Below are positions 10,762-30,158 of a stretch of 54,855 bases of DNA, piece after piece. Below the pieces are notes generated by a model. It had not been told where the DNA came from. It saw only the letters and a program-made list of their open reading frames with translations, and ran no database searches. Position 1 is the stretch's first letter; each line of letters begins with the position of its first letter. Source of the stretch: an uncultured beta proteobacterium. Its GTDB lineage: Bacteria > Pseudomonadota > Gammaproteobacteria > Burkholderiales > Rhodocyclaceae. Made by a program: the position numbers and the translations under genes. The stretch spans positions 1 through 54,855 of the forward strand of contig CAINHS010000102.1 in NCBI GenBank assembly GCA_903848955.1, written 5' to 3'.

Positions 10762-13700
10762 TTAGTTGTCGCCGTCCGCCCCGGTTCGCCCCCGCACTAT
10801 GGCGAGCGCCCCTTCGTAGTCAAAATGCGCAATGCAGCGCACGATTTCGTCACCTTCCTTGCCTAGCGCAGCGCGCAATAATTGTTCTTCGGTGTGGGCC
10901 AGTTCGCTGGCAGCCATATTGCCCTTTTTCAGCAGGTGTTCGAGCTTTGCCAACACCTCATCGACACGGGCCGGGTCAACCACCGCCGGCGCCGGACTGT
11001 CGGTCGCCAGCGCAGCGAGGATACCGGCGAGAAGAGGCAACAACTCGTCGATCAGCTTCCGCGCGCGACGGTCGATTTCCGCCCGTGCTGCCGTCTGGCG
11101 GACCGCCGACTGCAGCGCATTGGCGGCCTCGCTGACGCCCATCGCGCCGAGGTTGCCCGCCGAACCCTTGAGGGCATGTGCCAGCTTCTGAACACCGGGC
11201 AGGTCGCCAGCGTCGAGCATCAGCCGCAGACGTTGCGGATCGGATCCGTGACTATCCGCAAACAGCGCCAGCAACCTGAGGTAACTCTCCCGGTTGTGAA
11301 CGATCGACAAGCCGTGCGCCAGGTCAAGGCCGGCAACCGTCGGCAGGCTGCGCAGGTCGGCATCATCGACCGCCGGCGCTGCGTTGGGCATCTGCGCGTC
11401 TTTTCCGACGCCGGTCAGCGGCAGCCAATGTTCCAGGGTTGCATACAGCTGATCGGGTTCGACCGGCTTGCCGATGAAGTCATTCATGCCCGCATCAGTG
11501 CAGGCCTGCCGGTCCTCGTTGAAGGCATTGGCCGTCATCGCCAGGATCGGTTTGCTTTCCCAACCCGGCAGGGCACGGATGGCGCGGGTGGCTTCGAGGC
11601 CGTCCATCTCGGGCATTTGGATGTCCATCAGGATCAGGTCGTAGTCATGCGCCTGCACCTTGGCCAGGGCTTCGCGGCCATCGGCGGCGGTGTCCACCGC
11701 GAGGCCCGCGCCGTGCAGCAGTTCCAGCGCCACTTCGGAGTTGATCGGGTTGTCTTCGGCCAGCAGCACCCGTGCGCCGGCGTGGTGCTGGCGCAATCGC
11801 GTCTCGGCGTTCTGCACCTCCGCGACAGGAATACTTGGCATCAAGCCATGGCCGTGCTGCAGGCGGGCGGTAAACCAGAAGGTGCTGCCCACCCCCGGCG
11901 TGCTTTCGGCACCGACTTCGCCGCCCATCAGTTCAGCCATGCGCCGGGTGATGACCAGGCCGAGCCCGGTACCGCCGTACTTGCGCGTGGTCGAGGTATC
12001 CGCCTGTTCGAAGGCCTTGAACAGCCGGCCCATCTGCCCGGGCGCGATGCCGATGCCGCTGTCCTGAACCTCGAAGCGCACCAGCAATCCGGCGCCGTCG
12101 TCTTCCAGCAGTTTGGTGCGCAGGACGATGGAGCCGGTCTCGCTGAATTTGACGGCGTTGCTGGCAAAGTTGAGCAAGGCCTGGCGCAGCCGCGTGACAT
12201 CGCCGCGCAGCCACAAGGGCACGCTGCCGGCGTCGGTTTCAAGCCGCAAGCCCTTGGCCTGCGCCGCCTGCCCGATGATCGAGGTGACGTTGTCGAGAAT
12301 CGCCGACAGGTGAAAGTCGACGCTTTCCAGTTGCATCTTGCCGGCCTCGATTTTCGACAGGTCGAGAATGTCGTTGATGATGGCCAGCAGGTGCCGGCCG
12401 GCGCCGTCGATCTTGTCCAGCCGGTCGACCTGTTGCGGTGTCGCCCCGGCGCGCCGCAACAGGTGGGTGAGGCCGATGATGGCATTCATCGGGGTGCGGA
12501 TTTCATGGCTCATGTTGGCCAGAAAGTTGCTCTTGGCGGCGTTGGCGGCCTCGGCCTGACGCCGCGCGTCGACCAGTTCCGTGGTGCGCTCGGCTACCAG
12601 TTGCTGCAGATGATGCCGATGACTGTCCAGTTCGATGCCGATGCGAATTTTTTCGGTGACGTCTTCCTGCACCGCGACATAGTGGCTGATCGAGCCGTCG
12701 GCCTGGCGCAGCGGCGTGATGATGGCAAACTCGATGCAGTCGCGACCGTCTTTTTTGCGATTGTGGAATTCGCCCTTCCACGGCAGGCCCTGGTTCAGTT
12801 CCGCCCACATGCCGACGTAGGTTTCCGGCGGCGTCCTGCCCGACTGCAGAATGCGCGGGTTCTTGCCGATCGCTTCCTCCTGCCGGTAGCCGGTGGCCTG
12901 CACGAAGGCCTGGTTCACGTACTCGATTTCGGCCCGGGTGTTGGTGATGATGATGCTTTCCGGGCTCTGCTCGACGGCCAGTGCCAGCTTGCGCAGCGAC
13001 TCTTCCGCCTGCCGGCGTTCGGTGATGTCGGTATGCGCCACCACCGCACCGCCGTCTTCGGTTTCCAGCGGCGTCACGCTCATGCTGAACCAGCGTTGCT
13101 GCTGCTGCGAATGGCAGGGGTACTCGAGGCGGAAGAGCGGCAGGCGGCCGTCGAGTACCGCCTGGATGCCCTCGCCGGCGCTCGCCGCCTCATCCGACGC
13201 CGCGCCGGAGCTGGTGCGGCACAGCACCAGATAGTTTTCGCCAACCCCGGTATGCGGCGCCGGTTGGTCCGGCACGATGCCGTTTCCCAGCGCAAACGCG
13301 TGCCAGGGCCGATTCACCGCCGTGATTACGCCGCTGCGGTCGAGCACCGCAATTTCGACGTCGACCGAATCGAGAATGGCGCGACCGAAGGCATCGCTGT
13401 CGCGCAGCGCCGCCTGGTCCAGCGCCTGATCTTCGAGCATGCTCAGCAAGGCAAGGCGGGCTTCGTCCGATGCCGTTTGCATCGCAACGCGCTGGGTGAC
13501 GTCGCGGATGAAGGCGGTCACCCCCGTGATCTTGCCGTCCGCCTGCCGCACCGGATTCCAGGTAAATTCGTAATGAATATCCGCGCCGGGCTGATGCTGG
13601 ATTTCGGTAACAATTTCGCCGCCGAGAGCCCGATCGATGCTTTGCCGGGCCAGTTCCCGCAGCCGGGAGTCGGTCATGCACTCCAGCAGGCTGGTACCGA

Positions 13701-14349
13701 CCTGGAGTTCGGCCTGCCAGATCGCGCGCATCTCCTGGCGGTGCTTTTCGTTGAAGGTCGTGTAACGGTAGTTCCGATCCAGCGAAAAAATCACGATGTC
13801 GGCGGGACTGTTGATCAAGGCATAGAGCAGGGCATTCCGTGTCTTCAGGCTCTCCTCGGCCTGCCTGCGCTCGGCCAGCTCCCGGTGCAGTTCGCCGGTT
13901 CGCGCGGCGACGCGCCGCTCGAGCGTCTCGTTTGCCGCGCGCAAGGCGATTTCCAGTCGCTTGCGTTCGATCGCGAAGCGCAGCGTGCGCTCGATCAGTG
14001 CGCCGCTTGATTCGCCCTTCACCAGGAAATCCTGCGCGCCACGCCGGATCGCCGCGCGGCCGACATCCGCGTCATGCGATCCTGTCAGCACCACCAGCGG
14101 CAGCACCTCGGCGCGGTCCATGACTGCCAGTGCCGTGTCGAGCCCGTCGCTGTCGGGCAGGCCGAGGTCGCACAGCACGACGTCAAACGGTTCTGCTGCA
14201 ATGCGTGCCAGCGCGTCCGCCAGCCGTTCGACGCCGATGATGGCGAACATGCCCGGCACGTGGTCGGCGAGCGCGGTCTGCACCAGCAGCGCATCGCCCG
14301 GGTTGTCCTCGATCAGCAGGACACGAAAGGTAGGCGTGGGACTATCCAA
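10762..14349 (-). CDS. Large hybrid kinase: REC-PAS-PAS-PAS-HisKA-HATPase-REC-Hpt
   Basis: A 1195-aa cytoplasmic phosphorelay kinase. Domains in order: N-terminal REC (about 8-125, [13 protein letters not shown], Asp in [13 protein letters not shown]); coiled coil; three PAS domains (about 170-290, 320-435, 445-565, the last closing with [11 protein letters not shown]); HisKA with [18 protein letters not shown] near 615; ATP domain ([27 protein letters not shown]); a second REC ([18 protein letters not shown], Asp in [13 protein letters not shown]); and a C-terminal Hpt with the phospho-His in [13 protein letters not shown]. The complete His-Asp-His chain lets it pass phosphate to a separate regulator. 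The start is TTG at 14347-14349: the preceding gene's stop region AAAGGATAG supplies the ribosome site, so translation is probably coupled to the Rcp1-type regulator. Confidence 0.92.
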
Positions 14350-14353
14350 GAGT

Positions 14354-14799
14354 CTATCCTTTGGGCAAAGTCACCACGCGAACCCAGAAGTCGTCAATTT
14401 GGGCGACGACCTTCATGAATTGCTCCATATCCACCGGTTTGGTGATGTAACAGTTCGCATGCAGGTCATAGGCGCGCAGCACATCCTCCTCGGCCTGCGA
14501 GGTAGTCAGGACCACCACCGGGATGCGCTTGAGCACGGGATCAGCCTTCACTTCGGCCAGCACCGCGCGCCCGTCTTTCTTCGGCAGATTGAGGTCGAGC
14601 AGGATCAGGTCCGGCCGTGGCGCATCGCCGAAGCGGCCCTCGCGCCGCAGGAATTGCATCGCCTCGATGCCATCCTCGACGACGTGGATGTAGTTTTCGA
14701 GCTTGGCTTCGTGCATCGCCTCGATGACAAGGCGGGTGTCGCCGGGGTTGTCTTCCACCAGCAGGATGACGATCGCCTGCCTGTTGTTTCCATTCGAGC

Positions 14800-14803
<4 letters not shown>
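14354..14803 (-). CDS. Rcp1-type single-domain response regulator
   Basis: A 149-aa receiver-only protein of the Rcp1 class that typically partners bacteriophytochrome-like kinases. Hallmarks are [12 protein letters not shown] near 14-25, phosphoacceptor D70 in [13 protein letters not shown], the TTS motif ([13 protein letters not shown]) and lysine in [10 protein letters not shown]. There is no output domain. Its ATG overlaps the stop of the 958-aa kinase upstream (ATGA at 14800-14803), so it is the obvious partner of that kinase. Downstream, its last codons form the ribosome site of the large hybrid kinase, whose N-terminal REC looks like the same subtype (EDNPGDALL). Confidence 0.92.
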
Positions 14804-17676
<2,873 letters not shown>

Positions 17677-17686
17677 GGCCGCGCTT

Positions 17687-19384
17687 TCACTTTTCTGGCT
17701 CCGCCTCCGCCGCGCTCGGATAGCGCGGCGGTTGGCCGAACTCGGCCAACAGGCTGTTGACTTCTTTCTTCATGGCCAGGACGCGGCCTTCGCGGCCAAG
17801 CGTCACCTGTTGCCAGCGGCGCAGCTCGTCGAGTTGTTTATCCAGCGTCGAGGTCATTGCCTCCGCTTGGCAGCGTGCGGCGACGGCGTCCGCCATCAGG
17901 TTCAGTGTCGCCCGGCCGGCCTGGCGCTGGGCTTCGAGGGCAGCGGCCTGCTCGCTGATGCGCCGGTCTTCGCTTTCATGGCTGCGGGCCTCGGCCTGCT
18001 TGCGTTCGGTGATGTCTTCCGCAGCCGAGAAGAGTTTGTCTCCCTGTGTGCTACGAATGACGGCACCCCAATATCTGCCAATGATTTCTCGGCCATTCTT
18101 GCTCTGAAGGACAAGTTCCATACCATTCACCGAACCAGTTTGCTGCAACTCTTGCACCATCCGCATCCGTTCATCCTTACTGATCCAGCCAAGCTCAATT
18201 GCTGTCTTGCCAACGGCTTCTTCTCGGCTAAATTCAGAAACCCTGCAAAAGCTGTCATTGACTTCAAGATATTTTCCTGTAGCCAGATCGCTGAGGGAGT
18301 TCATCAGGGGACTCTTGCTAAATGCATAGACTAAAAGTTCCCTGCTTTCGCGCAGCGCATCCTCCGCCCGCTGGCGCTCAAGCTCGTCGGCGGCCACGAA
18401 GCGTGCATGCGCCAACCGCCGTCGCTGGCCCACGAACAGACCGATGCCGGCAACGAGAGCGACCAGTCCGAACAGCATGGCCTTTTCGTAGGCATCCTTG
18501 CGCCACAAGGCAAAGATGGCCGGCAAATCGCGCGCGACGGACACCACCAGGGTTTTGTCCATCAGTAGGTCCGCAGGCTTGATGGTGCGCAGGGCCATCA
18601 TGCGTTCATCGCCGGTGGCATAGGCAATCCCCGTCAGCAGCGTCGCCTGCTGCCCGCTGTCGCGGTGACGGGTAAAGAAACTGCCGGGTTGCGCGAGATC
18701 CTGCCCTTGCAGGCCGGCTTGCTCGGGCACGATCGCAAACAGCCTGCCGTCGGAATGAGTGACGGAAACCCGCATATCCGGCGCATAGACGACCGAATGC
18801 AGCAGGGTCTTGAAATAGCCGGGGTCGATGGTGACCCCGACCATTCCAATTATCTGGCCACGGTCATCGGCAATCAGCTTCACCGCCGTCATGGCGAAAG
18901 CTCCGAGCGCCGTGGTGTAAGGCGCCGAAAGGTGGAGCATGGCCGGGTTGCGGCTTTGCAGGGCGGCCTTGACATACTCCCGCTCGCGGAAATTCCACCC
19001 CATAATCTCCTTGCGGTTGGTAGCGAGCACGGTGGCGTCGGCATCGTAAACGAGCAGGGTGCGCACCCCCGGCATGACTTCGACCAGGGCCTGCAGGCGG
19101 TCGTTGATCAGGTCCGTACTGTCCTTTTGCGCTTTCAACAGAGGCAAATCCCTGCGGATCGACTCCAGTGCGCGATTGGTCGCAAACAACTGGCGCCTGA
19201 TATTTTCATCAATCATGCTGGCCCGACGGGACAAGCGCTCGCGCTCCTCGTCCTCGAGCTCCTGGCGGTCGGCATAGAGACTCCAGCCCATGCCGCCGCC
19301 AAGCATCAGCAGGGCCGCCGCAAGGAACAGCCATTCCCGCGTCAAGCGGGCCGCAAGGCGCTCGTTCGCCGGGAGCGTGCTCAT
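17687..19384 (-). CDS. Cache-PAS sensor protein without kinase domain
   Basis: 565 aa. One membrane helix (about 18-36), a double-Cache-like periplasmic sensor (about 40-300, containing GWNFREREYVKAALQ and VGVTIDPGYFKTLL), a second helix (about 310-328), a PAS domain (about 350-465, ending FSAAEDITERKQAEARS) and a C-terminal helical tail. The tail (about 480-550) contains LNLMADAVAARCQAEA and ELRRWQQVTLGREGRVLAMK followed by KEVNSLLAEFGQPPRY. There is no His kinase, GGDEF, EAL or methyl-accepting domain, so the signal must leave through protein contact. It starts by ATGA overlap with the preceding gene (19381-19384) and ends 10 bp before the phytochrome-type kinase. A related tail is present in the next two proteins. 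The role as an input subunit for the adjacent kinase is inference. Confidence 0.85.
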   Translation of the reverse strand: MSTLPANERLAARLTREWLFLAAALLMLGGGMGWSLYADRQELEDEERERLSRRASMIDENIRRQLFATNRALESIRRDLPLLKAQKDSTDLINDRLQALVEVMPGVRTLLVYDADATVLATNRKEIMGWNFREREYVKAALQSRNPAMLHLSAPYTTALGAFAMTAVKLIADDRGQIIGMVGVTIDPGYFKTLLHSVVYAPDMRVSVTHSDGRLFAIVPEQAGLQGQDLAQPGSFFTRHRDSGQQATLLTGIAYATGDERMMALRTIKPADLLMDKTLVVSVARDLPAIFALWRKDAYEKAMLFGLVALVAGIGLFVGQRRRLAHARFVAADELERQRAEDALRESRELLVYAFSKSPLMNSLSDLATGKYLEVNDSFCRVSEFSREEAVGKTAIELGWISKDERMRMVQELQQTGSVNGMELVLQSKNGREIIGRYWGAVIRSTQGDKLFSAAEDITERKQAEARSHESEDRRISEQAAALEAQRQAGRATLNLMADAVAARCQAEAMTSTLDKQLDELRRWQQVTLGREGRVLAMKKEVNSLLAEFGQPPRYPSAAEAEPEK

Positions 19385-20775
19385 CGCGGCGTGCCTGTGG
19401 CCGGTGAGTCCGAATCGCTCGCCGCGGCGATCGGGTCCTGCGGCAGATCGGCAAAGGCCAGGTCGAACGGCGCCGCCAGCCCGAGTTGCAGCGACAGCGC
19501 GTTCACCTGGCGTTTGAGACCGATCATGTCCAGTTCGCGACCGACCGAGAGACGATTGAAGCGGTCGAGTTGCTCGTTGCGATGGCGCAGAGCTTCGGTT
19601 TGCTGTTGCAGCGCCGTGGCTACCGCCTCGGCGGCGGTACGGGCCGCAATCGCGTCCTCCATCAGGTTCAGTGCCGCAATCCGACCCCGGCGCTGGGCTT
19701 CAAGGGCGTCGGTCATCTCGGCTTTGCGCCGGGCCTCGCTTTCCAGTAGCGCCGCTGTCATCTGCTTGCTCCCGGTGATGTCGAGGATGCAGGACAAGAC
19801 GTTGCCTCCGCCTTCTGCGGAGAGGATGTTCGCCGAAAAAAGCCCCGTCACCGGCGCCCCGGATTTCGTCCGAAAATTCAGCTCTCGCGCTATTACCCTG
19901 CCGTCCCTTGCCAGGGTCTCCTTGACGGCAACGCGATCCTCGTCGCGTTCCCACAGCTGCAGATCGATGGGTGACTTGCCGACGACTTCAGCTCGCTCAT
20001 AGCCGGTGACAGCCGCGAACTGATCATTCACCTCGACGATGACGCCGTCGGACTGCCGCGTCATCGTGATGGCGTAGGGAGCCAACTGGAAGGCTCTGGC
20101 GAACTTGTCTTGCTCGGTCGCGATCTCCATGACCAGACGCCTGTTCACCATCAGCACCAGGCTATAGGTCAGCAAAATGAGCAGGGTCTGATAGGTGATC
20201 AGTACCATTATCTCGAAGCCGCCTGACTGGAGGTAGTCTTGCGGGCCTCGCCCACCGGCAAAATGGCCGGCGATGCGGACGATGCTGAGCAGGCAATAGC
20301 CGACGAATATCATGCCGGCGCCGAATGTCAGCCGGCGCAGCATGGGCTCGACGCGATGCCACAAGAGCCACACGCATTGCCCGCAAATGATCAGGAAAAA
20401 AATCGAGAAGATCAGCGTACGTGTGGGCAGATCGGAATCAAACAGGTAAAAAACAAAGCTTCCGGCCGCGAGCAACAGATAGTTGTGCAGTTGCGGTCCG
20501 GGCTTGCGCAGGAATCGTTCCAGCCCGACCAAGTTCAGCAACGATCCCACCATCGACAGGATGTTGGCGAAGGTGATGGATATCCAGTCCGGGGCTATGC
20601 CGCGCGACGCGATCAGGCACAGCATCACGGTTTGAAAAACGAAGTTGATGGCCAGGAGGTTCAGGCCGTCGAAACGGTTGCGGTTCTCCCACCACAACTG
20701 GATGACAAACAGTGTGCAGACCAGGTAACTGATCGCGGCGAGGACAACCACGGTGCGCATGTCGAGATGCATCAT
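19381..20775 (-). CDS. Integral-membrane PAS protein without kinase domain
   Basis: 464 aa. The first 215 residues contain about seven hydrophobic helices (VVVLAAISYLVCTLFVIQLW, then LIFSIFFLIICGQCVWLLW), a membrane sensor region I cannot assign to a named family. A PAS domain follows (about 225-345, FQLAPYAITMTRQSDGVIVE, closing SCILDITGSKQM), then a coiled coil and the C-terminal module: LNLMEDAIAARTAAEAVATA and NEQLDRFNRLSVGRELDMIG, continuing LKRQVNALSLQLGLAAPF. No catalytic or DNA-binding domain is seen. The start ATG overlaps the upstream PAS gene's stop (20772-20775) and its own stop overlaps the Cache-PAS start. It is likely a sensory subunit acting with neighbours. Confidence 0.83.
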   Translation of the reverse strand: MMHLDMRTVVVLAAISYLVCTLFVIQLWWENRNRFDGLNLLAINFVFQTVMLCLIASRGIAPDWISITFANILSMVGSLLNLVGLERFLRKPGPQLHNYLLLAAGSFVFYLFDSDLPTRTLIFSIFFLIICGQCVWLLWHRVEPMLRRLTFGAGMIFVGYCLLSIVRIAGHFAGGRGPQDYLQSGGFEIMVLITYQTLLILLTYSLVLMVNRRLVMEIATEQDKFARAFQLAPYAITMTRQSDGVIVEVNDQFAAVTGYERAEVVGKSPIDLQLWERDEDRVAVKETLARDGRVIARELNFRTKSGAPVTGLFSANILSAEGGGNVLSCILDITGSKQMTAALLESEARRKAEMTDALEAQRRGRIAALNLMEDAIAARTAAEAVATALQQQTEALRHRNEQLDRFNRLSVGRELDMIGLKRQVNALSLQLGLAAPFDLAFADLPQDPIAAASDSDSPATGTPR

Positions 20776-21566
20776 GTCGGCCCCTTTGCGGTTGGCGCGT
20801 CAGCAAAGTCCAGTGCAAACGGAGGGGTGCGCCCGAGTTCGCGCGACAGCGCATTCACCTGTCGCTTGAGATCGATCATGGCCAGCTCGCGGTCGACGGC
20901 AGCCCGGTTGAAGCGCTCCAGTTCCTCGTTTCGTTTCAACAGTGCGGCCTCGGCGGATTTCCTGAGGCTGACGTCGGTCAGGGCAATGCGAATTGCCGCA
21001 GCGCTGGCGCCGTCCCCGGGGATGCCGGCCCGCAAAACGGAATCTCCGGCAAGCAAGGCGCCGCTTCGCATAACTTTTTGGGGCGCACAGTCCAGTCGCA
21101 CCTGAAACACCGTGCCGTCGCCGCGCCGCACGGCCAGTTCCGCCGTGCCATTGTCGCCCCCTTGCTTCACGCTCATGAAAAGCCTCATCCAGCGCGCCTG
21201 GTCTTTGTCGAGGACCATGGAAGCGAAGCTACGCCGCAGCAGCTTCTTGCGTTCTCTCCCGAGCAGAGCCACGGCGGTGAAGTTGGTCTCCTCGATCATG
21301 CCCTCCGTGTCGAGCGTGAGATAACCGACCGGGGCAAAGTCGTAGAGATCGACATAGCGGTCGCGCGCGGCTTCCAGCTCGGTCTGTTTCTGGCGCAGGG
21401 CCTCGTTCTGCATTTCCAGTTCGACCTGATGCACCTGAAGTTCATGCAACAGCTTTTCGTCCGGGTGCGCGGGATTTCCCCGGGTCAGCCGTTCATTGTC
21501 GATATGCCTCTCGGCTTTCGCCCGCAGAAGTAGATCGCGTTGTTGCTTTTCGTCAGGAGGGTTCAT
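20772..21566 (-). CDS. Cytosolic PAS protein without kinase domain
   Basis: 264 aa. An N-terminal helix with [19 protein letters not shown] (about 40-60) runs into a PAS domain opening [17 protein letters not shown] (about 74-90) and ending ALTDVSLRKSAEAALLK near 200-215. The last 45 residues are the shared tail: NEELERFNRAAVDRELAMID, then LKRQVNALSRELGRTPPF. No membrane helices and no output domain are visible. The ATG at 21566 has GGAG six bases upstream. The N-terminal half is very similar, at DNA level too, to the start of the kinase at 24353-26902, which suggests duplication. It is first of the translationally coupled trio. Confidence 0.83.
   Translation of the reverse strand: MNPPDEKQQRDLLLRAKAERHIDNERLTRGNPAHPDEKLLHELQVHQVELEMQNEALRQKQTELEAARDRYVDLYDFAPVGYLTLDTEGMIEETNFTAVALLGRERKKLLRRSFASMVLDKDQARWMRLFMSVKQGGDNGTAELAVRRGDGTVFQVRLDCAPQKVMRSGALLAGDSVLRAGIPGDGASAAAIRIALTDVSLRKSAEAALLKRNEELERFNRAAVDRELAMIDLKRQVNALSRELGRTPPFALDFADAPTAKGPT
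21314..21448. repeat. Duplicated segment, copy 1
   Basis: This 135-bp stretch, coding the helix and start of the PAS domain, recurs at 26659-26793 in the same orientation, with no length difference and mostly identical bases. The start ATAACCGACCGGGGC and the end CTGATGCACCTGAAGTT are shared. It marks duplication between the kinase-less PAS gene and the triple-PAS kinase, and a possible recombination site. Confidence 0.7.
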
Positions 21567-21629: not shown

Positions 21630-24266
21630 TCAGTGTCCGTCGTGCTGCGCCCGTCGCCTCTCCTGCCTTTGTTCGGAGTGGCGGAAGGCATCACGAACTG
21701 TTTCAATCAACTCGGCGTCGTCCCACGGCTTGGTCAGGAAGGAGAACAGCTCGCCGCGATTGACTGCGGTGGTGACTGCCTTGAGATCGGTATAACCGGA
21801 GAGGATCATGCGCACGACGTCCGGATACATCTCCCGTACTTTGCCCACAAATTCGCCGCCATTCATTTCAGGCATGCGCGCATCGGATATGACCACATCA
21901 ACCTTGTTCTTCGCCAGCAGCTCCAGTCCCGCCATGCCGCTGTCGGCGGCAAGAATCACGTAGCCCTCGCGCCGGAACAGGCGCTTGAGGGAGGAAAGAA
22001 TCCCCGGCTCATCGTCCACCAGCAACAGGGTGCGGCTCGACGCCGGCTCGGTGGCGGCGAACTCCAGTTTGCGGCGGTCGCGCAGCATTTGCCCGAACTC
22101 GGCTGCCTTTACCGGCCTGCTGAAATAGTAGCCCTGCATTTCATCGCAGTTGCGCCGCCGCAGAAAATTGAGCTGCGCCTCGGTTTCGACGCCCTCCGCG
22201 ATGGCCGAAAGCTTCAGGCTGTGCGCCAGGGAAATGATCGCAAGCGCGATGGTGGCACTGTTGGGATCGCTGACGATGTCGCGGACGAAGGACTGGTCTA
22301 CCTTGAGGCGGTCGATGGCGAAGCGCTTGAGGTAGGAAAGCGATGAAAAGCCCGTGCCGAAATCGTCGATCGACAGTGTGATCGACAGCCCCTTGAGCTG
22401 CTCCGTGGTCTTGATGAAGGACTCGGCGTCGGCCATCACCGCACTCTCGGTGAGTTCCAGCTCGAGGTAGTTGGCGCCCAGCCCCGTCTCGGCCAGGATG
22501 GCGGCGGCCAGCTTGACTACGTCTTGCGCCGCAAACTGGCGCGCCGACATGTTCACCGCCACGGTCACCGGCGTCAGCCCGGCATCCTGCCAGGCCTTGT
22601 TCTGCGCGCAGGCTGTGCGCAAGACCCATTCCCCGAGCGGCAGGATAAGGCCGCAGTCCTCGGCCAGCGCGATGAACTCGCCCGGCATGACCAGACCCCG
22701 CTGCGGATGCTGCCAGCGCACCAGCGCTTCGGCACCGATGATTTCGCCCGTGCGCAGGCTCAACTGCGGCTGGTAATAGACCACCAGCTCGGCCAGATCG
22801 AGGGCGCGGCGCAGTCCGTTTTCCATGTCCATGCGCTCCAGAGAGCGCGCATTCATTTCCGGTTCGTAGTAATTGAAGCGGTTGCCGCCTCCGGCCTTGG
22901 CCCGGAACATTGCCGCAGCAGCGTTCCTCAGCAGCGCCCCGCCGTTTTCGCCGTCCTTGGGAAAAACCGCGATACCGATGCTGCCGGTGAGGAAGAACTC
23001 GCGTTCGCCGAATTTGAACGGGGGCGCCAGCATCTCGAGCAGGGAGAGAGCCTGCCTTGTCGCCGCATCGGATTCCGTTGGCCCGGCCACCAGCACAAAC
23101 TCGTCGCCGTCGAGGCGCGCCAGCGTGTCCATCTTCCCGGTCACCGCGCCAAGACGAGCCGCGACATCGCGCAATACCTGATCGCCCGCACTGTGGCCGA
23201 GGCTATCGTTGATGCCCTTGAAGCGATCGAGGTTTATCGTGAGCAGCGCCAAGCCGCTGTTGGCCGCGCTGCATCGCGCAATGGCGCCGGCGATGCGGTC
23301 ATTGAGCAGGTTGCGGTTGGGCAGGCCGGTCAGGTCGTCGAAATTCGACTTGCGTTCCAGTTGCTCAAGATAGCGCTTGCGCTCGCTGACATCCTGCAGC
23401 GTCACTACCGCTCCGGCCGGCTTGTCGTCTTCGGCAATCGGCGTACAGGAGAACTGCAGTTCCAGCGGCCTGCCATCCTTGCGCCGGAATAGTTCCTCGC
23501 GGCCGGAAATCGCGATGCCGGTCCTGCAGGAAGTCTGTATCGGGCAAACGCCAGGGGCGCCATTCCCAGGCACGCCGGAGCTGAAAAATATCCCGGCGGC
23601 ACTGTGACCGCACAATTCATCACCCTCATACCCCAGCAGGGCCGCCGCTGCCGGGTTCACGAAGTTGATGATGCCCTCCGCATCGGTGCCGAAGATGCCT
23701 TCCGCCGCCGAGATCAGGATCAGTTCGCGCTGGTGGTTAAGCCTCTCCCGGGTGCGCTCGGCCTCATCCTGGATGCGCCGGTTTTCAGCCACGCGGCGGG
23801 CCACTTCGGCCTCGAGATACTGGTTCTGGTTACTCAGCCACTGACGGGCACGATAGACCTCAAGCTGCGTCCGCACCCGGGCCAGAACCACCTCGGGCTG
23901 GATCGGCTTTGGAATATAGTCGGCGGCGCCTTGCAGCAAGCCGCGGGCAGTGTCGTGGGGATCGCTGAGGGCAGTGAGGAATATCACCGGAATATTCCGG
24001 GTGAGGTCGTTTTCACGCAGCAACCGGAGCACTTCAAATCCGTCCATCTCCGGCATCATTACGTCAAGCAGGATCAGAGACGGCCGCGGCTCCTGAATGG
24101 CATAGCGCAACGCGACGGCGCCGGAGTTGGCGGCCTTGACCTCGTAGCCCTCGCCTCGCAACAGGGCTCCCAGCACGCCGATGTTCTCCGGCATGTCGTC
24201 AACGATAAGGATCGTCGCCTCATCTTCGGCAGTTGTATGCCCGACCCCGGCCGAGTGTTCATCCAT
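21630..24266 (-). CDS. REC-PAS-GGDEF-EAL-REC c-di-GMP protein
   Basis: 878 aa from ATG 24266, chosen because GGAGG lies ten bases upstream; an in-frame ATG at 24314 has none. Order: REC1 (about 18-135, Asp in [13 protein letters not shown]); coiled coil; PAS (about 190-310, closing [18 protein letters not shown]); GGDEF-like domain with the motif altered to DGDEF ([13 protein letters not shown]) and no RxxD inhibitory site; EAL domain with EALVRW, the DDFGTG loop and KVDQSF, all expected for an active phosphodiesterase; and REC2 (about 755-865, [20 protein letters not shown]). REC2 is the RpfG-like KPW type, as in the HD-GYP and double-receiver proteins. The likely activity is c-di-GMP hydrolysis with a possibly regulatory GGDEF. 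It lies 64 bp upstream of the PAS trio, same strand. Confidence 0.92.
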
Positions 24267-24352
24267 GACAATACACCTCCGCCGCCCATGGTACTCCGTC
24301 TGATGCGGAATCAATATGCCAGGAGCACTTTATTGCTGCCACCGGGAGATAC

Positions 24353-26902
24353 TTACTTTATCCTTGCGTACTCTTTTCCGGTAACCGCTTCGGCATCGAC
24401 GTTCTCCGTCGCAGGGGCGACGACTATCTCGTTGCCCTTCTTCAGTCTCACGGTAGCCCAGAAGGTGCTGCCCCGACCTTCCTCGCTGATTACCCCCGCG
24501 TCGCCGCCCATCAACTGGGCAATGCGTTTGGAGATGACCAGGCCAAGGCCGGTACCGCCGTATTTGCGCGTCGTTGAGCCGTCGGCCTGGGTGAAGGCAT
24601 GAAACAAGCGATCCTGCTGTTCGGGGCTGATGCCGATGCCCTGGTCGGTGACCTCCATGCGCAGCAATACACTCAGACTGTCTTCCTCCAAGACGCCGGC
24701 AGTAATGGTGATCTGGCCGTTCGTTGAGAACTTGATGGCGTTGCCGACGAAATTGATCAGTATCTGCCGCAGGCGGGTGGCGTCACCGCACAGCCGGTCG
24801 GGCAAGGCGGGGGTAATTCCGCGGCCCAGGCAGAGCCCTTTGGCCTGGGCCGCTTCACCCAGCATCTGAAGTGTGTCGTCAAATACTCGCGCGAGAGAGA
24901 AGTTCTTCTCCTCCAGCGTCAGCCGCTCGGCTTCAATGTTCGAAATGTCGAGAATGTCGTTGATGACCGCCAGCAAATGCTGGGCGGAATCCCTGCTCTT
25001 GTTGAGCCAGTCGATCTGTTTGGCATCGGTGGCGCGGCGCAAGGCGAGGTCGATCATGCCCATGACGCCATTCATCGGCGTGCGCATTTCATGACTCATG
25101 TTGGCCAGGAATTCGCTCTTGGCGCGATTGGCGGCTTCGGCGGCATCTTTGGCCTGTGCCAGTTCAGCCGTGCGCGAAAAGACGAGCTCTTCGAGGTGAT
25201 TGCGGTTCTGCCAGAGTTCTATCTCGACCTTCTTGCGGGCAGTGATGTCTCTTGCAATCTTGGAAGCGCCGATCACCTTGCCGCTGGAGTCCAAAACAGG
25301 GGATATGGTGACGGCTATATCGATCAACCGGCCATCTTTGCAGCGACGTACGGTTTCATAGTGATCGATTCTCCCGCCGAGTGCGATGCGCCCGAGTATT
25401 GCCGGTTCCTCATCCATCCGGTCCGGCGGGATCAGCACCTGCATCGATTGGCCGATGACTTCTTCAGCCCTGTAACCGAACAGTCTTTCGGCGCCACGGT
25501 TCCAGCTCTCGATAATGCCTTCCAATGTCTTGCTGATGATCGCATCATCCGTCGAATCAACAATGTTCTTGAATTTGCGCAGATCGATCTCAGTCTGCTT
25601 GCGTTCGGTCATGGCTCCATATTGCCGGGCCAGGTTCCCGATCAGTTCCCGCTCTTCCTTTAGAAACGGCCCCTCGTCGAGAAGCGGTGTTTCCTCCAGA
25701 TATCTGACCTCCACCGACCCGACGGTTTTTCCCGGGACAGTGATGTCGGCAGAAAGTTTCCAGGGTGTTTCCCTGAAGTTGTCCGTGATGAACACCTGCT
25801 CACCGATTACGATCCTGGCGCAAGCAATTGCGGGATAGTGCCAGCCCGGTGGAATAAGCTGAACCGCCGCAGCGAATGCTTCATCCTGGGAGATATCCGG
25901 CTTGGCCATCAGTATGGATGTCCGATAGAGGCAACCGAGCTCCTTGACGCGCTCCTCAACAAGCACGGTCTTTCGGGCAAGTTCCGCTGCCGCCTGTTTG
26001 TGCTCGGTTATGTCGCTGGCCACTGCGTAGAACAAGTGCGTTGCTTCAGCGGCATTGGCCGACCAGGCCAGCAGCCTGAATTCGCCGTTGCGGTGGCGGT
26101 AGCGGTTTTCGAAGTGGAAAGTTGTTATCCCTTGTGCGAGCTTGCCCATCTCCACCACGGTTCCCGCCTTGTCGTCTGGATGGACCAGGTCAAGGAAGTT
26201 GCTTCCCTCAAGTTCCTTCTGGCCATATCCCAACGCCAATTCCCAGCCCTTGTTAACCCGCAGAATCGCTCCATCGGCCCGGGCGATAAGAAGCAGGTCC
26301 ATGGATTGATCAAAGAACTTGTCCAGCGCATCTTCCGCTTGTTTGCGGTCGCTGATATCGGTCAGGGCAATGCGTATCGCCGTGCCGGCACCGGTCGCGG
26401 GGATACTGCCAGGCACGACATTCTGCTGAGCGTAATCCAGCTGTGCCTGAAACACCGTGCCGTCGCCGCGCAGCAGGGCCAGTTCCAGGCCACCTTTCTC
26501 CCCGCGGCTTTTTGCCCGCAGGAAATGCTGCATCCAGCAACGTTGGTCTTCGGCAATGACCAGCGCGGCGAAGGACTTTTGCTGGAGAGTTTCACGGTTT
26601 CTGCCCAGCAGCGTGACGGCCGTGAGGTTGATCTCCTCGATCGCGCCGTCGTCAGTAAGCGTGAGATAACCGACCGGGGCGAAGTCGTAGAGATCGACAT
26701 AGCGGTCGCGCGAGGCTTCAAGCTCTATCTGGGCAGCGCGCAAGGCCTCGTTCTGTATTTCCAACTCGACCTGATGCACCTGAAGTTGATGCAGCAGGTC
26801 TTCGGTCGAGAGGCCTGCGGCCGGCAACGCGTTGTCGACCTGCCTCTCCGCCAATGCCCTCAGGGGCATTCGCTCATGCTGCCTTTTCGCGTGCGCCTTC
26901 AT
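24353..26902 (-). CDS. Multi-PAS sensor histidine kinase
   Basis: 849 aa from ATG 26902 (GGGAG seven bases upstream; the earlier in-frame ATG at 26947 lacks a site). A helix with [19 protein letters not shown] opens into PAS1 ([17 protein letters not shown]), PAS2 ([20 protein letters not shown]), a GAF-like linker starting [20 protein letters not shown], and PAS3 ([20 protein letters not shown]). HisKA follows with [18 protein letters not shown], then the ATP domain ([28 protein letters not shown]). There is no receiver or Hpt domain, so a separate regulator is required; the REC-EAL protein 86 bp downstream is a candidate. No membrane helices. The PAS1 region duplicates that of the small PAS protein at 20772. 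Confidence 0.9.
26659..26793. repeat. Duplicated segment, copy 2
   Basis: Partner of the 135-bp repeat at 21314-21448, same orientation and same length. It codes the helix and PAS1 entrance of the multi-PAS kinase. Differences are scattered, mostly synonymous-looking substitutions, so the copies diverged under selection on protein. Confidence 0.7.
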
Positions 26903-27012
26903 GGACGCTCCCTTGCTTCCGGTGCGACTATTGCTGCACGAGCCCACTTCGATCCAAAGCCGGATTCACGTCCCGGTTCAACGGCCAATGGAGCCTGTGT
27001 GTTCTCCCGGGA

Positions 27013-28127: not shown

Positions 28128-30158
28128 ATGAACACGCGGCTTGCTACGCCCAGGCAGAATCGCATTCTGGCAGCCTTGCCGGCGGCCGAATACCTTCGCC
28201 TGGAGCCCGAACTGGAAGTGGTGTCTCTGGCCCCGGACCAGGTCATCTATGAGGCCGGCGACACGGTCGAGTTCCTTTATTTTCCGACAGCGGGCATCGT
28301 TTCACTACTCTGGAATACCGCAAGCGGGGCCACATCGGAACTGGCGATGACCGGCAACGATGGCCTGGTAGGCATTCCGGCGGTTCTCGGCAGCGAGACA
28401 ACATCGCATTGCGCGGTCGTCCAAAGTCCGGGCAGCGCGTATCGAATCCGCTCCGAGGTCGCTGAGTGGGTACTCGATCAGGGGGGCGAATTGCTGCGGC
28501 TGGTGATCCTGTATGCCAAGGCCCTGATGACCCAGATGGCACAGATCGCATTGTGCGGTCGCCACCACAGCGTCGAGCAGCAACTGTGCCGCTGGATTCT
28601 CCTCTGTCTCGACCGGCTGCCGGGCATGCAACTGAACACCACCCAGGCCATGATGGCCCACCTGCTGGGCGTTCGCCGCGTTGCGGTCTCCGAGGCGGCA
28701 GGCAAACTTCAGGCCGCAGGCCTGATGACCTACAGCCGCGGGCAGATAACGATTCTGGATCGTCGCGGCCTGGAAGCACGCGCCTGCGAATGCTATGCGG
28801 CGATGAAAATGCACTCGGACCGCCTCCTGCACTCGATGTCGAAAGCGCTCAACCCACCCCCGGTTCGGCCCACTCCAAAGAACATACGCGCCCGTGCCGA
28901 AAAGAGGCTCAAACACATGCAGGTCAGCCAGCCCCGTTCTCCGGATGACGTCGCTCGCCTGGTGCGTGAACTCCAAGTGCGTCAGATTGAACTGGAGTTG
29001 CAGAACGAGGAAATTGCCAACGCCTACGCCGAGGCGGATGCGGTGCGCGACCGCTACGCCGACCTCTACGATTTCGCGCCGGTGGCCTACGTGACCCTTG
29101 ACGCGCTGGGCGCCATCCGGCAGATCAACCTCTCCGGAGCGATTCTGCTGGGCATCAAGCGATCGCAGATCAAGCAGCATCGCTTTAGTGCATCGGTGTC
29201 ACCGTCTTTTCTACCCGCGTTCAACCGGTTTCTGGCGGACGTGCTGGACGGGCGAGCCCGCAAGACCTGCGAGATCGAACTCAGTCCGACACAGCGGCGG
29301 GGCATTGCCATCGTCCATATTGAGGCGGTTTCCGACGAAGGCGGGCAGGAATGCCGCATGGTCATCAGCGACGTGACGGCGCAGAGGCGCAGCGAGTACG
29401 CGTTGCGGGAGCGCGAACAGTACCGGCGCGCCTTGCTCGACAACTTCCCGTTCCTGGTCTGGCTCAAGGACGACCAGAGTCAATTTCTCGCCGTCAACCG
29501 GCCGTTCGCAGACCGATTCGGCTGGCCGTCGGCGGAGGCATTGGCCGGCAAGACGGATTTCGATATCGCCTCCAAGGATTTGGCCGAGGCCTATCGGGCC
29601 GACGACCGGGCGATTCTCGACAGCGGCAAGAGCAAGATTGTCGAGGAGTGGATCGAAGACCACGGCGAGCGGCGCTGGAGTGAAACGTTCAAGTCTCCGG
29701 TGACCCTCGATGGCCGCGTGATCGGCACGGTGGGATTCGCGCGCGACATCACCGAGCGCAAGAATGCCGAAGCCGCTTTGCGCGAAAGCGAGGAGCAGTT
29801 TCGTACCTTGACGGCACTGGCGCCGGCGGGCATCTACCTGACCGATGCTCATGGCCAGTGCATCTACGTCAATTCAAGCTGGTGCGCGATGACCGGCATG
29901 AATCCACAGCAGGCTCTCGGCGACGGCTGGAAAAGTGCCTTGCACCCCGAGGACCGCGACAAGGTCTTCGCGGACTGGGAAAAAATGGTGGCATCACGGG
30001 GCAAATGGGGAACCGAATACCGTTTCAAAACCCCGCAAGGCCGGATCACGTGGGTCTATGCACTGGCGTCGCCGCTGCGCGACCCCGCCGGGGATATCGT
30101 CAAGTATGTCGGCATCAACATCGACATTACCGAGCGCAAACAGCTGAAACAGGAATGA
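28128..30158 (+). CDS. Crp/Fnr-type regulator fused to three PAS domains
   Basis: 676 aa. Residues 20-140 are a cyclic-nucleotide-binding-type jelly roll (EAGDTVEFLYFPTAGIVSLL), followed by a dimer helix and a winged helix-turn-helix (about 150-225, TQAMMAHLLGVRRVAVSEAA). After a basic linker comes the helix VRELQVRQIELELQNEEIAN, then PAS1 ([17 protein letters not shown]), PAS2 (LLDNFPFLVWLKDDQSQFL) and PAS3 (ALAPAGIYLTDAHGQCIYVN). The protein ends right after the last PAC motif (INIDITERKQLKQE), with no kinase, GGDEF or other output. So DNA binding is probably the output and the PAS block a C-terminal sensor. No FNR-type N-terminal cysteine cluster is seen. The ATG has GGAGG eight bases upstream. 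The jelly roll lacks an obvious cAMP-binding RxS pocket. Confidence 0.9.
   Translation: MNTRLATPRQNRILAALPAAEYLRLEPELEVVSLAPDQVIYEAGDTVEFLYFPTAGIVSLLWNTASGATSELAMTGNDGLVGIPAVLGSETTSHCAVVQSPGSAYRIRSEVAEWVLDQGGELLRLVILYAKALMTQMAQIALCGRHHSVEQQLCRWILLCLDRLPGMQLNTTQAMMAHLLGVRRVAVSEAAGKLQAAGLMTYSRGQITILDRRGLEARACECYAAMKMHSDRLLHSMSKALNPPPVRPTPKNIRARAEKRLKHMQVSQPRSPDDVARLVRELQVRQIELELQNEEIANAYAEADAVRDRYADLYDFAPVAYVTLDALGAIRQINLSGAILLGIKRSQIKQHRFSASVSPSFLPAFNRFLADVLDGRARKTCEIELSPTQRRGIAIVHIEAVSDEGGQECRMVISDVTAQRRSEYALREREQYRRALLDNFPFLVWLKDDQSQFLAVNRPFADRFGWPSAEALAGKTDFDIASKDLAEAYRADDRAILDSGKSKIVEEWIEDHGERRWSETFKSPVTLDGRVIGTVGFARDITERKNAEAALRESEEQFRTLTALAPAGIYLTDAHGQCIYVNSSWCAMTGMNPQQALGDGWKSALHPEDRDKVFADWEKMVASRGKWGTEYRFKTPQGRITWVYALASPLRDPAGDIVKYVGINIDITERKQLKQE

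Follow-up and report, generated by a model that had tools for sequence, protein, structure and literature searches.

A conserved C-terminal tail of kinase-less PAS sensor proteins is linked to neighbouring histidine kinase genes

In this study, we analysed 54,855 nucleotides from an uncultured beta proteobacterium (contig CAINHS010000102.1, assembly GCA_903848955.1; hereafter the window) and found that three consecutive sensor genes, coding for P0001, P0002 and P0003, end in a common C-terminal tail. On the evidence of sequence comparison, this tail is a real, unnamed and widespread output module of kinase-less sensors, and it is tightly tied to histidine kinases. We lean towards the view that it is a portable C-terminal output module, which would couple separate kinase-less sensors to a downstream histidine kinase.

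The sensor genes and their operon

A sequence-only reading of the window had described three ATGA-coupled genes on the minus strand. Their coordinates (Table 1) proved correct, and both junctions are 4-base ATGA overlaps. In addition, Pfam detected a PAS domain in each of the three proteins. In none of them did it find a kinase, cyclase, EAL, MCP or DNA-binding family, in agreement with the earlier description of three kinase-less sensors without output. The claim that their inputs are distinct also stands, since one is dCache-like, one lies in the membrane and one is soluble. However, the dCache_1 match of P0001 (E 1.2e-9, 38.5 bits) falls under the 45-bit cut-off of Pfam, and the "seven-helix" domain proposed for P0002 was only nearly right, because its 10 hydropathy windows merge into 6 segments at the threshold used. 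For comparison, there were 2 hydropathy segments in P0001 and 0 in P0003. Past P0001, the same run of genes continues with a kinase, a response regulator and a hybrid kinase.

Elsewhere in the window, the single chain encoded by the plus-strand frame at 28128-30158 combines, according to Pfam, three PAS stretches with a Crp-type HTH and a cyclic-nucleotide-binding domain. Unusually, a CRP-like regulator is fused here to sensors, which are placed after the DNA-binding part.

Table 1. Positions of the sensor genes, their tails and the neighbouring genes in the window
Feature	Positions	Strand	Description
P0003	20772..21566	minus	264 aa; soluble; N-terminal helix, PAS and tail; without output domain
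P0002	19381..20775	minus	464 aa; multi-helix membrane domain, PAS, coil and tail; without output domain
P0001	17687..19384	minus	565 aa; membrane-anchored dCache-like domain, PAS, coil and tail; without output domain
Tail of P0003	20799..20942	minus	profile match; predicted single helix, pLDDT about 97
Tail of P0002	19447..19590	minus	profile match; inside a predicted helix of 97 residues
Tail of P0001	17708..17845	minus	diverged RRW type; independent profile E 8e-9
Kinase	14800..17676	minus	membrane PAS-HisKA-HATPase; 10 bases past P0001; proposed recipient
Response regulator	14354..14803	minus	single-domain, presumably Rcp1-like; 4-base overlap with the kinase gene at 14800-17676
Hybrid kinase	10762..14349	minus	REC-PAS-HisKA-HATPase-REC-Hpt; 4 bases past the regulator at 14354..14803, with the TTG start given by the ORF list
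c-di-GMP protein	21630..24314	minus	REC-PAS-GGDEF-EAL-REC; 63 bases upstream of P0003
Kinase	24353..26947	minus	multi-PAS histidine kinase; N-terminal sensor common with P0003

The shared tail

The shared C-terminal motif reads ELERFNR..VGREL.MI.LK..VN.L...LG..PPF, and the consensus of the tail is ELERFNRxAVGRELRMIELKxxVN. The tail is about 45 residues long and has the core R-E-x(6)-K-x(3)-N, followed by L, G and PP-Y/F. Furthermore, the FNR-type tails include a conserved post-helical segment, PPY/F-x-L-x-F.

The tails of P0002 and P0003 share 67-69% identity, and that of P0001 was only weakly similar to them in single-sequence comparison (E 0.009 and 0.08). We then used an independent profile of 86 FNR-type tails from other loci, from which the window tails and the RRW-type tails were excluded. 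This profile gave exactly three matches among the 579 frames of the window (E 5e-28, 5e-26 and 8e-9, the last being P0001), with the next best at 4.2. In addition, the last 60 residues of P0001 scored 35.8 bits vs 5.5 bits for the best of 1000 shuffles, 821 of which were reported at all. Judged from these comparisons, the tail of P0001 is homologous to the other two, as the sequence-only reading had supposed when it described a similar tail in two proteins and a diverged one in the third.

The mean column entropy was 1.09 bits for the tail vs 2.89 bits for the PAS domain in the same 67 PAS-tail proteins, a contrast that is partly inflated by the selection of loci through the tail itself. Still, columns outside the search patterns were conserved (V or I in 67/67, N205 in 67/67, L211 in 66/67 and P216 in 66/67). 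The R, E, K and N columns were invariant in the 67 proteins and also in 45 more diverse copies. Codons at these invariant residues varied, and thus selection acts on the protein.

No consistent Pfam match was found when 45 tails were scanned (at most 3 members hit one family, best E 0.013), and the tail lies outside the NCBIfam matches of P0001-P0003. A PDB sequence search with the tail gave chance coiled coils only (E 0.21 and 0.89). The part of the literature that was accessible, including the results of motif-string searches, held no description of it. With its low column entropy and without a Pfam, NCBIfam or PDB match, the tail fits the earlier proposal of a real, conserved and unnamed module.

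AlphaFold2 predicted residues 34-264 of P0003 as a PAS core and a 44-residue C-terminal helix that runs through the motif (mean pLDDT 91.7, pTM 0.75). The C-terminus of P0002 was predicted as a 97-residue helix (pLDDT 93.0, pTM 0.65). In a Foldseek search, the best solved folds were short LOV proteins (PpSB1-LOV and W619_1-LOV) and PAS domains or dimers.

Tail carriers and their neighbours

To survey the tail in other genomes, contigs were scanned and the best 80 of 112 relatives were kept, which gave 78 loci. Together with the window, these 79 sequences hold 91 tails, each in its own carrier protein. The tail lies within 60 residues of the C-terminus in 91/91 carriers and within 20 residues in 82/91. 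HisKA, HATPase, REC, GGDEF and EAL domains are all absent from 89 of the 91 carriers. The two exceptions, L097 and L118, carry HisKA-HATPase-REC, a PAS (by eye) and the tail in one chain.

These domains were detected with our own profiles, which started from window seeds, went through three hmmsearch rounds and are blind to HWE, HD, MCP and HTH domains; for these four, coverage came from Pfam and for subsets only. Pfam was run on 71 of the 91 carriers and found 19 families, every one sensory or linker, including PAS types, dCache, DUF4118, HAMP, CHASE, MASE3, SBP_bac_3 and GAF. The 20 other carriers include the three of the window (scanned separately), L097 and L118. The MCP signalling domain was absent from the 71 carriers and from P0001-P0003.

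We found that a kinase gene is the usual downstream neighbour. At least 1200 bases downstream were available for 85 of the 91 carriers and not for the other 6. We took the nearest following frame with a domain, up to about 600 bases away, and for these 85 it was a kinase in 65 cases (one of them, L117, is just an 84-residue HATPase frame) and another tail protein in 10; in 2 cases it carried only REC, and in the remaining 8 there was no such frame. We scored 77 junctions: 55 are overlaps, and the overlap is exactly 4 bases in 49 of these. In three of the cases without such a frame (L058, L101 and L123), the next frame is a long DUF4118 or 5TMR multi-PAS frame at most 40 bases from the contig end, and these frames may be cut kinases. 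In L057, L081, L099 and L109, a short ATGA-started frame stands right after the tail gene; by eye, it resembles the N-terminal part of a DUF4118 kinase that has been lost or frame-shifted. In L066, L070, L071, L082, L104 and L106, the kinase past the tail gene has a REC between two HisKA-HATPase units; by eye, the second unit of such double kinases corresponds roughly in position to the tail of L097 and L118.

For comparison, we examined 40 tail-less PAS_9 proteins (frames shorter than about 800 aa) from 5 genomes, hand-picked among the matches listed. A kinase frame was next in only 2 of these 40 (L200 and L207) vs 65 of 85 tail carriers. However, 36 of the 40 have HisKA, HATPase, REC, GGDEF or EAL of their own. 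In the remainder, L193 is MCP-like and L203 and L209 are CRP-HTH-like (all by eye), and no output was recognised in L173. Thus, 39/40 have their own output, three of them judged by eye, and the control holds hardly any output-less PAS protein for comparison.

The sequence-only reading had proposed a profile search to see whether the tail occurs mostly on kinase-less sensors beside kinases, and the counts of 89/91 without output and 65/85 with a kinase next show that it does. It had also named either a kinase or the REC-GGDEF-EAL protein as the target; the kinase is the recurring neighbour, whereas the REC-GGDEF-EAL protein is not. Read from gene order, a conserved coupling between tail gene and kinase gene is strongly supported.

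Two DHp classes are found among the partner kinases, with 36 of SHEIRTP type and 26 of SHDLRAP type. We looked for tail residues that track the kinase class in these 62 pairs, using plain permutations with statistics that ignore kinship. This failed, because only 1 of 49 tail columns differed at p<0.03, which is about the chance level. The result argues against a docking surface that is specific to DHp or to the kinase class. A hybrid kinase with a YR.HLEELV..RT coil was also considered as the universal partner and was rejected, as 12 of the 50 sequences that extend 7 kb or more downstream lack it.

Distribution and internal copies

The tail of P0003 was found in 11/200 genomes of the order at E 0.01, and with a 12-row profile the motif was found in 50/398 genomes of the phylum at E 0.001 (both counts include the window genome). 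The loci come from beta- and gammaproteobacteria, from Telmatospirillum and Desulfobulbus, and from single MAGs with the labels Chloroflexaceae and Lentisphaerae. In the methanotroph Methylomonas sp. LW13 (L094), two tails precede the kinase. Between 1 and 3 tail matches were counted in each of twelve genomes picked as locus holders. In the window genome itself (3.62 Mb, 151 contigs), two single-sequence searches and one profile search gave no further credible copy. We attribute its two weak matches, L004 (E 0.32) and L005 (E 0.80), to chance and take the L004 frame to be acetyltransferase-like and the L005 frame to be antisense to a NifB-like one. In addition, a record of Aeromonas caviae from a plasmid collection shows the order REC-HD, tail protein, hybrid kinase. 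This record (locus L211, NZ_AP026896.1) is a 4.94-Mb circle listed as plasmid pKAM479_3, and its size suggests a chromosome.

Forty further regions with flanks, from other families, were hand-chosen from the 77 matches of the phylum profile search. The tail is C-terminal in 24 of them, 6 of which hold a second, internal copy. In the 23 of these 24 with room downstream, the kinase is next in 15 and follows after one intervening gene in 8. These intervening genes occur in L137, L139-L141, L148-L150 and L166; the three that were scanned encode FIST, NMT1-like and Peripla_BP_4 domains, and they are sensor-like and without output themselves.

In the other 16 regions, the motif is internal only, and HisKA-HATPase comes later in the same chain in 12. 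Where scanned, the internal motif is followed by PocR in L131 and L161 and by a coil into HisKA in L154. Thus, the motif is also found outside kinase-less proteins, and sensors that are separate in one genome are fused with a kinase in another. An ordinary linker that always precedes a kinase, which the sequence-only reading had set against its own proposal, does not describe the 91/91 C-terminal tails of the 79 sequences.

Discussion

In the mechanism that we prefer, P0001-P0003 would be receptor subunits without an enzyme. In each of them, a different input domain would lead to PAS and then to a C-terminal helix running on into the tail module. The tail would be the output and would couple the receptor to the kinase at 14800-17676, encoded directly downstream, and several separate sensors would set the activity of this one kinase. 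From this kinase, the signal would pass through the small regulator at 14354 and the hybrid kinase at 10762, and perhaps also through the c-di-GMP enzyme at 21630. In favour of this mechanism are the homology of the tails and their place at the C-terminus, their conservation, the lack of any other output, the coupling of the genes to kinase genes, the fusions with kinases that occur in nature, and the sensor that P0003 and the kinase at 24353 have in common as far as the tail. Judged from its carriers and gene neighbours, the tail probably functions as a "coupling plug". We infer a contact between the tail and the PAS, coil or DHp region of the kinase, as well as the direction of the effect and the nature of the signals. 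Since the tails do not differ between the two DHp classes, the contact, if any, should lie at a feature common to both. Alternatively, the tails may form bundles with one another, and their effect on the kinase may come from PAS contacts.

A broader idea, which we put forward tentatively and with the chances somewhat against it, is a chemoreceptor-like logic for ordinary histidine kinases. The tail would plug any sensor in trans into one kinase, 1 to 3 or more membrane and soluble receptors, each from its own gene, would make up a mixed sensing complex, and such proteins would form a widespread unnamed receptor class.

The absence of kinase-class-specific residues from the tail would also suit a structural cap, that is, a homodimerising coiled coil that ends the PAS stalk, with an ordinary operon order and receptors acting via the PAS surface. 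The tail is predicted as one straight helix with PAS, the top PDB folds belong to short LOV proteins without an effector and to PAS dimers, and internal copies lie between PAS and other domains, all in line with a cap. However, the four invariant polar residues and the PPY/F-x-L-x-F segment of FNR-type tails exceed the needs of a zipper, and the kinase is next far more often than in the tail-less PAS proteins, although that control is non-random and consists mostly of proteins with their own output. We therefore consider the cap unlikely. Far less credible is a tail derived from a former kinase, as its decayed DHp helix or linker. The tail does follow PAS where HisKA does in kinases, and its start resembles, by eye, the region ahead of the H-box. 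Nevertheless, hhalign of the tail profile against a window kinase gave E 0.55 (one kinase tested), Pfam found HisKA in 0/45 tails, and a conserved histidine is absent from the tail alignment. Furthermore, the tail is more conserved than PAS, and the varied codons at its invariant residues point to selection at the protein level.

Two other explanations concern the partner. Upstream of the 85 carriers with room, the neighbour was REC-only in 43 cases, a tail protein in 10, REC-GGDEF-EAL-REC in 4, others in 5 and none in 23. The HDxGK motif occurs in 33 of the 43 REC-only neighbours (one was confirmed as REC-HD by Pfam), and many relatives have a REC-HD-GYP-like protein where the window has REC-PAS-GGDEF-EAL-REC. 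Thus, the tail might dock on the upstream c-di-GMP regulator (REC-HD-GYP or REC-GGDEF-EAL) and not on the kinase, and the presence of a REC frame with HDxGK or EAL in 48/79 sequences speaks for this. Still, we regard it as quite improbable: there is no such frame in 31/79. In the other families, a regulator of this type lies within 1.2 kb upstream in 5/40 regions (L142, L143, L145, L146 and L160) vs a kinase within two genes downstream in 23/23 regions with C-terminal tails. The tail proteins might also heterodimerise with kinases via paralogous PAS domains, as P0003 with the kinase at 24353, and the tail would then replace the kinase half. Residues 1-211 of P0003 are 55% identical to the N-terminus of this kinase (E 9e-63), and the similarity stops where the tail starts. 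Sensor parts are also shared with a same-locus kinase in L111 (67% over 510 aa) and L130 (129 residues). Still, heterodimers are improbable, as a same-locus sensor match (at least 40% over at least 100 aa) was found in only 3/91 carriers, and sensor swaps are thus rare. In L111, the identity is strong (78-98%) over about residues 17-366 and weak (16-42%) beyond residue 366, in the last PAS. L111 was rejected as a sensor swap up to the tail, because close identity ends about one PAS before it; judged by alignment, such a swap is clear only for P0003.

We return to the tail as an output module for kinases, which can be compared with known systems. Methyl-accepting chemoreceptors are kinase-less, have varied inputs and use one conserved helical output that controls CheA in trans. 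Like them, the tail proteins are kinase-less and combine many inputs with one common helical module. However, the 71 carriers scanned have no MCP domain, the tail has only about 45 residues, and its proposed partner is an ordinary HisKA kinase. DivL, RetS and TorT are accessory regulators, in which a separate protein tunes a histidine kinase, and the tail proteins would do the same. Unlike the tail proteins, each of these is an individual case and has kinase-like or periplasmic parts, and to our knowledge none of them uses the tail.

In the accessible part of their descriptions, the short LOV proteins PpSB1-LOV and W619_1-LOV resemble the tail proteins in having a PAS-fold core, helical extensions and no effector domain. 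We know of no such common C-terminal motif or kinase-neighbour rule among short LOV proteins. The LOV cysteine motif is NCRFL, and it is absent from the sequences of P0001-P0003.

The S-helix of signalling proteins, a helical and conserved stretch some 40 residues long, stands beside PAS, bears ERT as the signature of its central heptad and joins an upstream to a downstream signalling domain, according to the accessible part of its description (PMC1592074). The tail is likewise a conserved helical segment adjoining PAS. Compared with the S-helix as described there, it has R-E...K...N and no ERT in its consensus, and it is C-terminal in 91/91 carriers of the 79 sequences; a linking position is seen only in the internal copies of other families.

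Output-less PAS proteins are mostly left unexplained. The tail would mark them and point to their kinase, and it would make such genes readable as receptor-kinase systems. Furthermore, it would show that several inputs can be combined on one kinase without fusing every sensor into one chain, and it would offer a ready plug for sensor building.
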